Source of the DNA: Acidobacteriaceae bacterium
GTDB taxonomy: Bacteria > Acidobacteriota > Terriglobia > Terriglobales > Acidobacteriaceae
Direction of reading: 5' to 3'
Assembly (NCBI GenBank): GCA_003132405.1
Contig: PKXQ01000149.1
Location: 1 to 64,000, forward strand
DNA length: 64,000 nucleotides
In this document: piece after piece, positions 1-9,188 of the stretch
How the letters are laid out: every line of letters begins with the position of its first letter
How positions within the stretch are numbered: position 1 is the stretch's first letter
Translations under genes and position numbers: made by a program
The notes under the pieces: generated by a model
What the model was told of the DNA's origin: nothing
Seen by the model: the letters and a program-made list of their open reading frames with translations, nothing else
Databases searched by the model: none

Positions 1-240
1 CAGTGTCGCGGAAACCTCTTTGTGAGCCGCCAATTGCTGACGAAGCACCGAGTTTTCGAGAAGTAGCATCGCAAAGCTGGCACTGAGGAAATTGCGCAAG
101 CTTTTGCTTTCGAGATTGGACGAGCTGGTCGCTCGTGTCTCGAAGAAGATCCGATAAAAGTCGTAGTGCAAGGAGACTGTTGTGAGCTGTGTTTGCACGA
201 TCGGAGCAACGTCGGTTCCCTGGAGTTCTGTGGGCGACGA
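1..240 (-). CDS. Partial open frame, unknown protein
   Basis: A minus-strand frame stays open from just inside the 3' end of the luciferase-like gene to the window edge. No ATG begins it; a TTG lies deep inside. The peptide has a plausible protein composition, with a stretch ending in ENSVLRQQLAAHKE that looks helical. I do not recognise the family. It could be the start of a gene that continues outside the window, a gene fragment, or a chance open frame. Confidence 0.25.
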
Positions 241-241
241 T

Positions 242-1267
242 TTAGCGCCAACCGAGGGCTGGGGCGACCGTAGTCAGAATTGCCTCCATGACATGCGCAT
301 TGTAGGCAACACCTAGTTGATTTGGAACGGTTAGCAACAGCGTGTCGGCCTCGGCGATCGCCTCGTCTTTCTTAAGCTGCTCGATGAGAATCTCTGGTTC
401 AGCAGCGTAGCTGCGGCCGAAGATTGCCCGTGTGTTTTCGTCAAGGAACCCGATCTTGTCCTCTTCTTCCTGAGAGCCTCGTCCGAAATAGCCACGATCG
501 CGGTCATCGAGCAACGCAAAAATACTGCGGCTAACGGAAACGCGCGGAGTACGCGTGTGACCAGCTTCCTTCCAGGCTGCGCGAGAGGCGCGAATCTGGG
601 CAGCCTGTTGGATGTGCAGCGGCTCACCGGTCTCATCGAATTTGAGGGTTGAGGTCTGCAGGTTCATTCCTAGCTTCGCGGCCCATGCTGCTGTCGCGTT
701 CGAAGCAGACCCCCACCAGATTCGATCACGCAATCCCGCAGAGTATGGCTCAAGACGTAGCAGTCCCGGAGGATTGGTAAACATTGGACGTGGGTTAGGC
801 TGAGCGAAGCCCTTGCCGCGCAGCAACTCGAGAAATTCTTCGGCATGCCGGCGGCCCATATCGGCATCGTCCTCGCCTTCAATCGGACGGTAACCAAAAT
901 AACGCCAACCATCGATGACCTGCTCGGGGGAACCGCGGCTGATTCCCAACTGCAGTCGGCCGCCAGAGATTAGATCCGCAGCCCCAGCGTCCTCCGCCAT
1001 GTAATGAGGGTTCTCATACCGCATGTCGATCACTGCGGTGCCAATTTCAATCTTTCGCGTTTTGGCACCAACCGCCGCGAGTAGTGGAAACGGTGATGCC
1101 AGTTGCTGCGCGAAGTGATGAACACGGAAGTAGGCTCCGTCCATTCCCAGGCGCTCGGCCTCCACGGCGAGGTCAATGGACTGCAGGAGCGCGTCGGTCG
1201 CCGACTGCGTTCGTGACTGCGGTGAAGCTGTCCAATGACCGAATGAGAGGAAGCCAATTTTCTTCAT
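242..1267 (-). CDS. LLM class flavin-dependent oxidoreductase (luciferase-like monooxygenase)
   Basis: The protein of about 341 residues has the bacterial luciferase-like TIM-barrel layout. It opens with KKIGFLSFGHW, then a helix rich in AVEAERLGMDGAYFRVHHF, a TRKIEIGTAVIDMRYENP strand, and the GGRLQLGISRGSP phosphate-binding region typical of FMN or F420-dependent members. Such enzymes reduce or oxygenate small substrates in the cytoplasm; the substrate cannot be read from sequence. I chose the ATG at 1267, not the upstream ATG at 1285, because GGGAG lies in front of it and homology starts there. Its ATG overlaps the TGA of a short upstream fragment. Confidence 0.85.
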   Translation of the reverse strand: MKKIGFLSFGHWTASPQSRTQSATDALLQSIDLAVEAERLGMDGAYFRVHHFAQQLASPFPLLAAVGAKTRKIEIGTAVIDMRYENPHYMAEDAGAADLISGGRLQLGISRGSPEQVIDGWRYFGYRPIEGEDDADMGRRHAEEFLELLRGKGFAQPNPRPMFTNPPGLLRLEPYSAGLRDRIWWGSASNATAAWAAKLGMNLQTSTLKFDETGEPLHIQQAAQIRASRAAWKEAGHTRTPRVSVSRSIFALLDDRDRGYFGRGSQEEEDKIGFLDENTRAIFGRSYAAEPEILIEQLKKDEAIAEADTLLLTVPNQLGVAYNAHVMEAILTTVAPALGWR

Positions 1268-1350
1268 GCAATATAAGTCTCCCATATCACCGATAAGGCC
1301 GTGCGCCGCTTCTCCGCGTCGCGCTCGCCGAATGCTTCCAGGTTCTTTGT
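1264..1350 (-). pseudogene. Possible SnoaL/NTF2-like gene fragment
   Basis: About 28 codons read NLEAFGERDAEKRRTALSVIWE and then stop at the TGA that overlaps the start of the luciferase-like gene. The phrase resembles the first helices of SnoaL/NTF2-like proteins (AFGERDAxRRxxxxxxIW). Nothing of the remaining fold is present. This is a short similarity and could be coincidence. Confidence 0.22.
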
Positions 1351-1753
1351 GCGGTGAACGGTGTGACCGTGCTCGACTATCGGGATTCCGCTTCTGGGGT
1401 GATGGAGGAAGGTAATGATGGTTCAGGAGAGTTCGTCCGAGTGACGCTGAGACCTAGAATGAAAGTTTCTCATTGCGATGAGCGAGCACGAGCTCTTGCT
1501 CTTCACAACGAGGCCCATCGCCTTTGCTTCATTGCGAGGTCGGTGAGGTTCCCTGTAGACATCGCCCCGGAAATCATGGACGCAACGGCACCTTCCGTAT
1601 AGGAAAAACTGTCCAGAAACGGGCTTCGGGGAGATCGGAGCACTGACGACGGTCAACACCATCACGCTTCCTCCAAGCCGACTTCTGAGGGGCCGCAAGA
1701 CCTCAAGTGTCCAACTAGCGTTTTGTCGGCTGTAACAACTTCTTGCCACGACA
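1351..1753. other. Intergenic stretch without a supported gene
   Basis: Short frames of 80 to 120 codons exist on both strands, but none has a convincing start signal or recognisable motif. I see no RNA gene, repeat or clear promoter here. It separates the luciferase-like gene from the chimeric recombinase frame. Confidence 0.5.
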
Positions 1754-1774
1754 GTGGTTCTGCATTGTGAGAAC

Positions 1775-2758
1775 ATGCTTTTCATGGATGCGAATAACCC
1801 TTACGCCGAGGACTTCGGCCCTTTCGACGGGCGTGTTTGGCTGAATACCGCACACCAGGGTCCGCTTCCCCGAGTCGCGGTTGAAGCTGCAAGAGCTGCG
1901 CTTGAACGAAAAGCCCGACCACATCTCCTTCGGGATGAGGATTTTTTTGAAGTGCCGAAGAGGCTGAGACCAGCGCTTGGCAAGCTAATAGACGCTGCGC
2001 CAGAAGATATCATTCTCGGTAACAGTACCACCTATGGCCTTGACCTGCTGGCCAATGCAATGCAGTGGCAGCCTGGAGACGAAGTCTTAGTAGTCGACGG
2101 AGATTTTCCTGCCGATATTTTCCCATGGTTGATACTCCGCAACCAGGGCGTGACAGTTCGTTTCATCGAAGCACGATCAGGAAGATTGGAGCCGCAACAA
2201 CTCGCTCGCGAGATCTGTGCGGCGACCGCGCTGCGCTCGTCGGAGATTCTGGCGTTGCGCTGGGCGGACGTGCTGTGGGGTGAAGGAAGGATTAGGGTAT
2301 CGAAGCGCTGGGCCAAGGGCGAAGACGGAGAAACGAAAACCGATGCATCGGACGGCTACGTCCCGCTGCATCCGGTCCTGGCCGGGCATCTTCGCGCGTG
2401 GCAAAGACAGACGCCGCATGCGAAGGCAACCGACTTCGTGTTTCCGTCGATGAGAGCCGAGGGAAGGAAACCGCTCTGCTCCTCCGTATTCGTCGCCGAC
2501 CATCTGCGACCGGCCGCAAAGAAAGCCGGAGTACACATCGAGGACGGCCAACGGTTCGGGCTTCACAACTTGCGTCACAGCTTAAGCAACTGGCTGGTGA
2601 ACAAGGCGAAAGTCGAACCTAAGACCGTGCAGGGACTCTTGCGTCACAGCAAGATTCAAACGACCCTCGATCTGTACACGCAGGAAGACAGCGACGAGAC
2701 ACGGGCGGCGCAGGGTGAATTCCTGACGGCCGTGGGAATGAATGTAACGGTGCAGTAG
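1775..2758 (+). CDS. Chimeric frame: class V aminotransferase N-part joined to tyrosine recombinase catalytic domain
   Basis: Residues up to about 150 match the N-terminal half of class V PLP aminotransferases (selenocysteine lyase/isopenicillin epimerase type): WLNTAHQGPLP, a STTYGLDLLANAM helix and a GDEVLVVDGDFPA strand. The half carrying the PLP lysine is missing. From about residue 158 (near 2225) the frame becomes a phage-type integrase catalytic domain. Arg is in LRSSEILALRW, Lys in the TKTDASDGYVPL hairpin, HxxR in HNLRHSLSNW, His in LLRHSK and the nucleophile Tyr in LDLYTQ. The core-binding domain of the recombinase is missing. Both parents are truncated, so this is probably a deletion or recombination scar that stayed in frame. 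It lies 62 bases from the 3' end of tRNA-Asp. A GTG at 1754 is an alternative start. Confidence 0.75.
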   Translation: MLFMDANNPYAEDFGPFDGRVWLNTAHQGPLPRVAVEAARAALERKARPHLLRDEDFFEVPKRLRPALGKLIDAAPEDIILGNSTTYGLDLLANAMQWQPGDEVLVVDGDFPADIFPWLILRNQGVTVRFIEARSGRLEPQQLAREICAATALRSSEILALRWADVLWGEGRIRVSKRWAKGEDGETKTDASDGYVPLHPVLAGHLRAWQRQTPHAKATDFVFPSMRAEGRKPLCSSVFVADHLRPAAKKAGVHIEDGQRFGLHNLRHSLSNWLVNKAKVEPKTVQGLLRHSKIQTTLDLYTQEDSDETRAAQGEFLTAVGMNVTVQ

Positions 2759-2820
2759 ATGTGGGTTGGATTGTGGGTTGGAGTTGCCGGTGTCACGTCC
2801 GGTAACTCTTTGAAAAGAAA

Positions 2821-2897
2821 TGGCGGGGACGACGAGACTCGAACTCGCGACCTCTGCCGTGACAGGGCAGCGTTCTAACCAACTGAACTACGTCCCC
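2821..2897 (-). tRNA. tRNA-Asp (anticodon GTC)
   Basis: The reverse strand folds as a standard tRNA. GGGGACG pairs with CGTCCCC in the acceptor stem, the anticodon stem CTGCC/GGCAG encloses loop CTGTCAC with anticodon GTC, and the T arm carries GTTCGAGTC. The discriminator is G, as in other tRNA-Asp genes, and CCA is encoded. Its 3' end faces the recombinase frame, the usual layout where an element has used a tRNA gene as its attachment site. Confidence 0.95.
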
Positions 2898-6245: not shown

Positions 6246-9188
6246 ATGTCGACAGATAGCATTGTGGTTCGCGGGGCCCGGGTTCACAACCTAAAGAACA
6301 TTGATTTTGAAATCGAACACAACACTCTGACCGTCGTTACCGGTGTGTCTGGGTCGGGCAAGTCGTCGCTCGCCTTCGACACCATCTACGCCGAAGGCCA
6401 GCGGCGATATGTCGAATCATTGTCGGCGTATGCACGCCAATTTCTCGAGCGGATCGAGAAGCCGGACGTCGATGTAATCGACGGGATCGCCCCCGCGGTT
6501 GCGATCAAGCAAAAAAACTCTACCCGCAATCCTCGTTCGACTGTCGCGACAGCCACCGAGATCTTCGATTATCTGCGTCTGCTCTTCGCCCGCGTAGGCC
6601 GCACCTACTGCCTGCTCTGCGGACAGGAGGTAAAAAAAGATACGGTAGATGAAGTCGCGGAACGCGTCCTGGCTCTGGGCGAGGGCACGCGGCTGAATGT
6701 GTTTTTTCCGATCCAGATCAACACTCCCCCCCCGTCGGCCGAAAAGAAAACCGGCAAAAAGATTCGCGCCAAAAAAAACACGCCTGACTCGCGTCTGCCA
6801 TCGGATGCAATTAAAGAGCGGCTCTTCGATCTACGCAAGCGCGGCTTCAATCGGCTTTATCAGAATGGCCAGGTGTTCGAGTTCTCGACTCCAGAATCAT
6901 TGCTCGATATCAACTTTTCCGAGCCGGTTTATGGCCTCGTAGATCGTCTAGTCATCTCCGCCGATCAGCGCTCGCGCATTGTCGATGCAGTCGAGATCGG
7001 CTATCGCGAAGCCGGCGAGGTTATTTTCGAGACCGCCCCTCGCGAGAGCGACGGCGAAAAAAGCTCGCCGGAGCGGCTGCGCTTCTCACAACGCTTCGAA
7101 TGCAAAAACGACGGCACCCGCTACGAAGAGCCCGAGCCTCGCCTGTTTTCATTTAACAATCCTTACGGCGCTTGCCCGCGTTGCCAGGGATTTGGCAACA
7201 CCATTGATTTCGATCTCGATCTTGTCATCCCCGACAAGGGCAAGACTTTGACTGAAGGCGCGATCGAGCCTTGGACGAAGCCAAAATATCGCCCGTTATT
7301 CACCGAACTCAAACGCTTCGCGCGCTCCACTGAAATTCCGCTGGATGTGCCCTGGTACGACCTCGAAGAGGAACAGCGGCAGTTGATTGTCGACGGCGGC
7401 CCGGGATTCTCCGGTGTGCGTGGCTTCTTCCAGCATCTTGAGCGCAAGAAATACAAGCTGCACGTGCGCGTCTTTCTCAGCCGCTATCGCGGATATTCGC
7501 TTTGCTCAGAATGCGGCGGCACTCGGCTGCGAGCCGAGGCGCGCCAGGTCAAGATTCAGGCCAAGAATATTTGCCAGGTGTGCAGCATGACGGTCGAAGA
7601 GGCCGCCCGCTTCTTCGATCAACTCTCGCTATCGCCGCAACAGGCTGCCATTGCCGATAAACTTCTAATTGAACTTCGCGAGCGCCTGCGTTTTCTCAAC
7701 GAAGTGGGTCTGGAATATCTGACCCTTGATCGCCTCGCCTCGACGCTATCAGGCGGCGAGGCGCAACGCATTCAACTCGCAACCTCTCTCGGCTCGCGAC
7801 TGGTCGGCACACTCTATGTGCTCGATGAGCCGTCCATCGGCCTGCACAGCCGCGATACGCACCGCCTCATCAAGATCCTGCACGATCTGCGCGACTTGGG
7901 AAACACCATTCTCGTGGTTGAGCATGATCCCGACATCATGCGCGCCGCCGATCGCATTCTCGATCTCGGTCCTGGCGCGGGTGAGAATGGTGGGAAGGTG
8001 GTTGGCGCCGGCACCTACAACGAGATCATCAAGATGCCACAATCGCTCACCGGCCGCTATCTGGCCGATGAATTGCACATTCAGATTCCGACGAAGCGGC
8101 GCCAGCCAGGGTCGCACAAACTTCGCATCACCGGAGCGCGCGCCCACAACCTGAAGCGCATCGATCTAGAAATCCCGCTCGATATTCTGGTAGCGATCAC
8201 TGGCGTTTCCGGCTCGGGAAAATCTTCGTTGTTGCACGACGTGCTCTATCAGGCTGTTGCGACAGCGAAGCGGCAAACCAACGGCAGCGCGCCCTCCACC
8301 ATTTTGTGGGACAGCCTCGAGGGCGAAGATTATCTCGATGAAGTGGTGCTCGTCGATCAATCTCCCATCGGCCGCACTCCGCGGTCGAATCCGGTCACGT
8401 ATATCAAAGCGTTCGACATTATCCGTGAACTTTTTGCGTCGCTGCCGGAAGCAAAAAAGCGCGGCTTCCCTGCCGGGCATTTTTCCTTCAACGTTCCCGG
8501 CGGGCGCTGCGAAAATTGCCAGGGCGACGGCACGGTCACCGTCGAAATGCAATTCCTCGCTGACGTCGAACTGATCTGCGATGAATGCAAAGGCACGCGC
8601 TATAAGCCGCAGGTGCTCGAGATCCATTACAAGGGAAAGAACATTCACGAAGTGCTGAATCTTACGATTCGCGAGGCGCTGAAATTTTTCGCTGAAGTTC
8701 CCCGCCTTACGGAAAAGTTGCGCGTGCTCGATGAAGTAGGCCTTGGCTACCTGCGCCTTGGACAGTCCGCCACCACGCTCTCCGGAGGCGAAGCGCAGCG
8801 CATGAAGTTGGCCGCACACCTACAGCCGGGAGCTCGCGCCGTGAGTCGGCCATCGGAGGGCGGCGATGCACCCAGGCGCAAGCGCCGCATGCTTTATATT
8901 TTCGATGAGCCCACGACCGGCCTGCATTTTGACGATGTAAGCAAACTACTGTCAGCGTTTCGCCGTCTAATCGATGCAGGCGGATCGATCGTCGTCATCG
9001 AGCACAATCTTGAAGTCATCAAAACGGCCGACTGGGTAATCGATCTCGGTCCCGAGGGCGGCGATCGTGGCGGAAATATAGTCGGCTCAGGGCCGCCCGA
9101 AGCGATTGCCGAGCTGAAAGACTCCTATACTGGGCAGTATCTGAAGCAGGTTTTGAACGGAAACGGCGCTCTCCATGGTGGCCAATAA
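6246..9188 (+). CDS. uvrA: Excinuclease ABC subunit A
   Basis: UvrA recognises DNA damage as a dimer and loads UvrB in nucleotide excision repair. Walker A motifs GVSGSGKSS occur near residue 33 and again in the second half, each followed by LSGGEAQR signatures and [17 protein letters not shown] Walker B loops. Zinc-finger cysteines are in [24 protein letters not shown] and CDECKGTR. At 980 residues it is longer than the common 940. Lys-rich extra sequence sits in the first insertion domain (about 158-180), and a charged insert lies between the second signature and its Walker B. AGGGGA precedes the ATG. The stop lies inside the next gene, so the two are coupled. Confidence 0.97.

Follow-up and report, generated by a model that had tools for sequence, protein, structure and literature searches.

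Decay of a tRNA-Asp island: a deletion very probably fused the front of an aminotransferase gene to the tail of an integrase gene in an Acidobacteriaceae bacterium

Genomic islands located at tRNA genes end in a regenerated tRNA gene on one side and a displaced tRNA fragment on the other (Islander, PMC4383910), and "grounded" prophages are elements fixed by damage to the recombinase or to the att sites, which go on rearranging afterwards (PMC6379469). The locus analyzed here is a decayed example of these known kinds, and no new mechanism is needed to account for it; a narrow literature search returned no specific description of an aminotransferase-integrase chimera. As in Islander-class islands (PMC4383910), the tRNA target is intact and has the integrase sequence next to its 3' end, and the boundary is marked by a displaced tRNA 3' fragment in two of the genomes compared (G003 and G017); in contrast, the integrase of this locus is truncated and the distal fragment unplaced, as befits a dead remnant. 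In grounded or cryptic prophage remnants (PMC6379469), loss of the recombinase likewise fixes the element, and deletions and insertions follow, but no phage structural genes were identified in this case and the integrase tail alone is in view.

The window (the whole stretch of DNA that was analyzed) covers the initial 64 kb of contig C25 from a metagenome-type draft genome (5.7 Mb, 158 contigs, 88.8% complete), which among named genomes is closest to MAGs labelled Acidobacteriaceae. Since its position 1 is the contig end, the left flank is limited to 1.78 kb. The features of the locus are as follows:

242..1285, minus strand: luciferase-like monooxygenase gene, a flanking gene, accessory in the genus, with a paralog (93% amino acid identity) on contig C141 of the same genome
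1606..1687, no strand: palindromic dispersed repeat of ~80 bp upstream of the aminotransferase segment, with matches in several genus members
1742..2214, plus strand: aminotransferase-homologous segment (blastn, 75% over 473 bp against G014/bog_207), which also takes in about 42 bp ahead of the start
1784..2758, plus strand: in-frame chimeric ORF, 324 aa from the ATG at 1784 (alternative start GTG at 1754), stop ending at 2758
2212..2216, plus strand: junction zone, lying between the last base clearly assignable to the aminotransferase (~2211) and the first clearly assignable to the integrase (~2217)
2216..2758, plus strand: C-terminal part of a tyrosine integrase, 180 residues, from residue 211 of 391 (parents L059 in G008 and L145 in IMG/VR)
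2759..2820, no strand: integrase-tRNA spacer containing direct repeats of TGTGGGTTGG; a counterpart can be recognised in G012, G017 and L145 (pairwise alignments, blastn)
2821..2897, minus strand: intact tRNA-Asp (GTC; ARAGORN), a putative attachment site, 3' end toward the integrase stop

Pfam analysis of the single 324-aa product placed Aminotran_5 on residues 60-150 (E 8e-8) and Phage_integrase on residues 138-302 (E 5e-20), and the occurrence of both matches in one product is far beyond chance. An earlier note on this DNA had proposed an aminotransferase-recombinase chimera in one open frame, which these two domains and the identity of each portion to an intact parent (81% and 71%, respectively) bear out; the span that it gave (1775-2897) was too wide, the chimera occupying 1784-2758 only and 2821-2897 being the tRNA-Asp gene. 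It was also right that both parents are cut and the frame is open, the product consisting of the front of the aminotransferase (residues 1-144) followed by the C-terminal 180 residues of an integrase of 391 aa. The absence of stops and frameshifts across the 324 codons counts against a scar, but a young scar needs none. A search with the whole chimera against the 24 members of the genus comparison set returned partial matches only, so that a full-length fusion kept in close relatives, the finding that the note held would overturn its reading, was found in no other genus member. A conserved fusion gene was ruled out on the basis of the same search.

The aminotransferase portion comprises the front third only (residues 1-144 of about 380), the part with the PLP-lysine being missing. 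Residues 2-144 showed 81% amino acid identity to the intact parent, a 406-aa ORF (L049) of bog_207 (PLHP01000212.1) that is found on the same 3,920-bp contig in G014. This parent is a class V aminotransferase near cysteine-desulfurase-like proteins, under every NCBIfam cut-off, and the chimera matched profile positions 47-142 of 371 of PF00266, short of the full class V fold with its PLP-binding lysine. The likeness between the two extends over the 42 bp upstream of the start, whereas the bog_207 gene is full length and lies between pepA and smpB, as it does in G014. Close copies were present in three of the 24 genus members: the gene is intact in G014 and truncated in the genome studied here, and G008 has a 301-bp remnant that contains a stop. 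A reading of the gene as an ordinary core gene at the locus studied here was discarded, as it is accessory, with no copy between pepA and smpB in G017 and G034. Judged by these sequence comparisons, the aminotransferase is an intruder at the integrase/tRNA-Asp locus. A viral scan for it on phages and plasmids yielded 17-residue matches only.

The integrase portion retains the full set of six tyrosine recombinase catalytic residues (R151, K185, H261, R264, H288 and Y298), as had been claimed. The accompanying description of a "catalytic half" holds for these six positions and is slightly generous as to the domain: the Pfam match begins at profile position 24 of 172, indicating that the start of the catalytic domain and everything N-terminal to it are missing. 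Without parent residues 1-210, neither a complete catalytic domain (PF00589) nor the N-terminal core-binding domain is present, and by its predicted domain content the integrase part is a truncated remnant, not a functional PF00589 member. Two intact 391-aa parents were found, with 69-71% identity over the shared 175 residues. One of them (L059, 71% identical) is encoded on G008 contig C23 beside tRNA-Val, and the other on IMG/VR contig IMGVR_UViG_3300014155_000266 (L145), where an HTH_17 (excisionase-like) gene, the full integrase gene and tRNA-Asp follow one another in an order, spacing and orientation that match the window. Positions 2216-2912 of the window aligned to L145 at 71%, the alignment continuing across both spacer and tRNA. 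Because L145 shows the same arrangement undisturbed, the integrase tail is taken to occupy its native position, the aminotransferase front having replaced everything upstream. In named phages and plasmids only remote matches to the integrase were found (identity <30% for the best among the matches listed).

Shorter stubs of this integrase, truncated independently and joined to unrelated sequence, were detected in two other species. In G012, about the last 39 residues remain (cut at residue ~353), in a tRNA-Asp/tRNA-Leu/methyltransferase/COX3 locus like that of the window, with tRNA-Leu inverted; G017 retains about the last 92 residues (cut at ~300), which adjoin a 45-bp duplicate of the tRNA-Asp 3' end. 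Divergence from the window is lower for the G012 stub (dS 0.44, on only 38 codons) than for the COX3 gene of that genome (dS 1.24), which fits a horizontally moving element. The different points at which the stubs are cut show that the tail of an integrase can persist next to a tRNA gene after the element itself is gone. The missing halves of both the aminotransferase and the integrase had no close match in the genome's own assembly (89% complete), where only distant paralogs were found; the search for the lost aminotransferase end suggested in the earlier note thus returned it as absent. The native position of the integrase in L145, the stubs of G012 and G017, the missing halves and the lack of the fusion in relatives agree with the note's proposal of a recombination scar left by a decayed integrated element, and we consider it very probable that a deletion at a tRNA-Asp island fused the aminotransferase front to the integrase tail, leaving a pseudogene-like scar.

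In order to place the junction, the window was compared base by base with L049, L145 and L030. The frame switch between two parents that had been located near 2225 is real, its position being 2212-2216. The alignment to intact homologues, which the earlier note had recommended along with a check for microhomology, showed that the parents share two to three bases in this zone (GA at 2212-2213 and T at 2216), and that the join is gapless and without filler, their common sequence amounting to about five bases at most. Aminotransferase codon 144 is followed directly by integrase codon 211. Of the three possible frames only one encodes the integrase, the remaining two being interrupted by 6 and 4 stops over 540 bases, so that an in-frame join is a 1-in-3 event.

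A wrong joining of an aminotransferase-bearing fragment to the integrase/tRNA-Asp contig would also produce such a junction, and the draft nature of the assembly (158 contigs), the distance of only 2.2 kb between the junction and the contig end, the recurrence of the first 97 bp as the terminal part of contig C124, a fork in the assembly graph, and the difference in third-position GC on the two sides of the junction (0.50 vs. 0.72) are consistent with it. However, the few bases shared by the parents are far below the usual assembler word length, there is no N gap at the join, neither gene has its other half anywhere in the assembly, and the left side also resembles the same genome (luciferase paralog on C141). 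On these sequence data, misassembly is considered unlikely. In the C124 recurrence, all but one base of window positions 1-97 are the same as the last 97 bp of that contig (reverse strand).

The point at which the aminotransferase is broken coincides with the end of the G008 fragment, which random deletion does not explain. This 301-bp fragment (contig C17) ends within a few bases of the position homologous to window ~2213, and GAGATCTG occurs both at the window junction and 12 nt past the G008 break, as would be expected of a preferred recombination site or, for the shared end, of an inherited truncation. Either is highly improbable: the dN/dS of 0.08 between the two fragments indicates divergence while both were still whole genes and so disfavors an old truncation common to both, the sequences past the break are unrelated, and the probability that two breaks in a 1.2-kb gene fall within about 15 nt of each other by chance is estimated at 1-3%. 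No remains of integrase, excisionase or aminotransferase beyond noise were found past the G008 break, nor in window positions 1320-1760. The G008 fragment itself (L050, 4989-5289) pairs with window positions 1914-2213 and is decayed; in a 222-aa ORF of contig C17 it, too, continues the reading frame of an unrelated sequence, which lies upstream and has no Pfam match.

Differences from the relatives were distributed over the three codon positions as 17/16/70 in the aminotransferase part (dN/dS about 0.08) and 36/27/96 in the integrase part (dN/dS about 0.14-0.15), ratios that are approximate, as dS was near saturation in several pairs. The dominance of third-position changes in both halves indicates that both belonged to working genes until recently. 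The same bias, together with the open frame, the retention of all catalytic residues and the fewer amino acid changes on the integrase branch of the window than on that of either intact relative, might instead reflect a real fusion gene, expressed and selected, whose product could be a DNA-binding or regulatory protein built on the C-terminal part of the integrase. This is very unlikely, since low dN/dS reflects selection on the separate parents, which before a recent fusion fully accounts for the pairwise values, and is no demonstration of a selected fusion. Moreover, each moiety is missing portions that its fold requires, other genus members are without the fusion, and the stubs of G012 and G017 join unrelated sequence. 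More specifically, the translated chimera might have acquired a role, such as binding DNA at tRNA-Asp attachment sites and thereby keeping new islands out of the hotspot, but this is hardly credible; were it true, translation would give peptides spanning QQLAREICAATALR.

Under the favored explanation of a deletion scar, an island or prophage with a tyrosine integrase would have inserted at tRNA-Asp, with some 60 bp separating the end of the integrase gene from the 3' end of the tRNA. One later deletion, with its breakpoints in two genes of the same orientation and the ends joined through no more than a few shared bases, would then have removed the back of the aminotransferase, any DNA in between, the small HTH/excisionase-like gene and the N-terminal half of the integrase. 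Aminotransferase codon 144 would thereby have met integrase codon 211, in frame by chance, and the aminotransferase may have been a cargo or neighbor gene, on or next to the island. A single deletion would be the simplest explanation. According to the Pfam and NCBIfam alignments, the chimera lacks the catalytic-lysine region of the aminotransferase and the DNA-binding and early catalytic parts of the integrase, suggesting that it is most likely inert, translated or not, with neither aminotransferase nor integrase activity expected. This soil bacterium very probably once carried a mobile element beside tRNA-Asp, and the scar is of an ordinary genomic type. The locus offers a clear, datable case of an integration hotspot yielding in-frame chimeric ORFs through deletion, and automatic annotation could easily misname such a product as a functional aminotransferase or integrase.

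With regard to the island, the integrase remnant lies next to the tRNA gene in the orientation usual for tRNA-integrated genomic islands, and the recombinase end faces the 3' end of tRNA-Asp (2821-2897, minus strand, 3' end toward the integrase stop), as the earlier note had stated. The flank past tRNA-Asp differs in each genome compared, in keeping with the sporadic distribution and variable content of such islands, and the tRNA-Leu/methyltransferase/COX3 side is common to them. Integrases of only distant similarity were also found at tRNA-Asp in G003, G009 and G008, which makes the site an integration hotspot. The segment duplicated in other genomes covers about 2821-2865, from the anticodon loop to the 3' end; copies of 45-52 bp were detected in G017, G003 and G031 and on contig C27 of the same genome, and their extent, from the anticodon loop onward, marks the attachment segment. 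The copy on C27 (45 bp, 93%) has no established linkage to C25, and nothing ties it to the island; the distal boundary of the island was not found, the contig ending 2.2 kb left of the junction. Just ahead of the C27 copy (L053, 7590-8011), scraps resembling tRNA 3' ends were observed at ~7610-7650 and ~7730-7765, next to Fur-like and peroxidase genes, perhaps an attachment-site graveyard.

On the left side, the dispersed repeat and the luciferase-like gene with its copy on C141 (91% DNA identity to window positions 238-1322) indicate that the flank is accessory DNA. Some copies of the ~80-bp palindromic repeat in the genus lie near contig ends. A 5' half of tRNA-Asp without the 3' half was found on C141 (L052, 645-715), with upstream flank matches and followed by a globin gene and the luciferase-like gene, as well as on contig C399 of G014 (L115, 8771-8800). 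In G003, contig C47 (L056, 7602-11181) carries tRNA-Asp, a full integrase gene and, at a distance of 3.5 kb, a second duplicate of the tRNA-Asp 3' end, and is thereby a candidate for a small island of which both ends can be seen.
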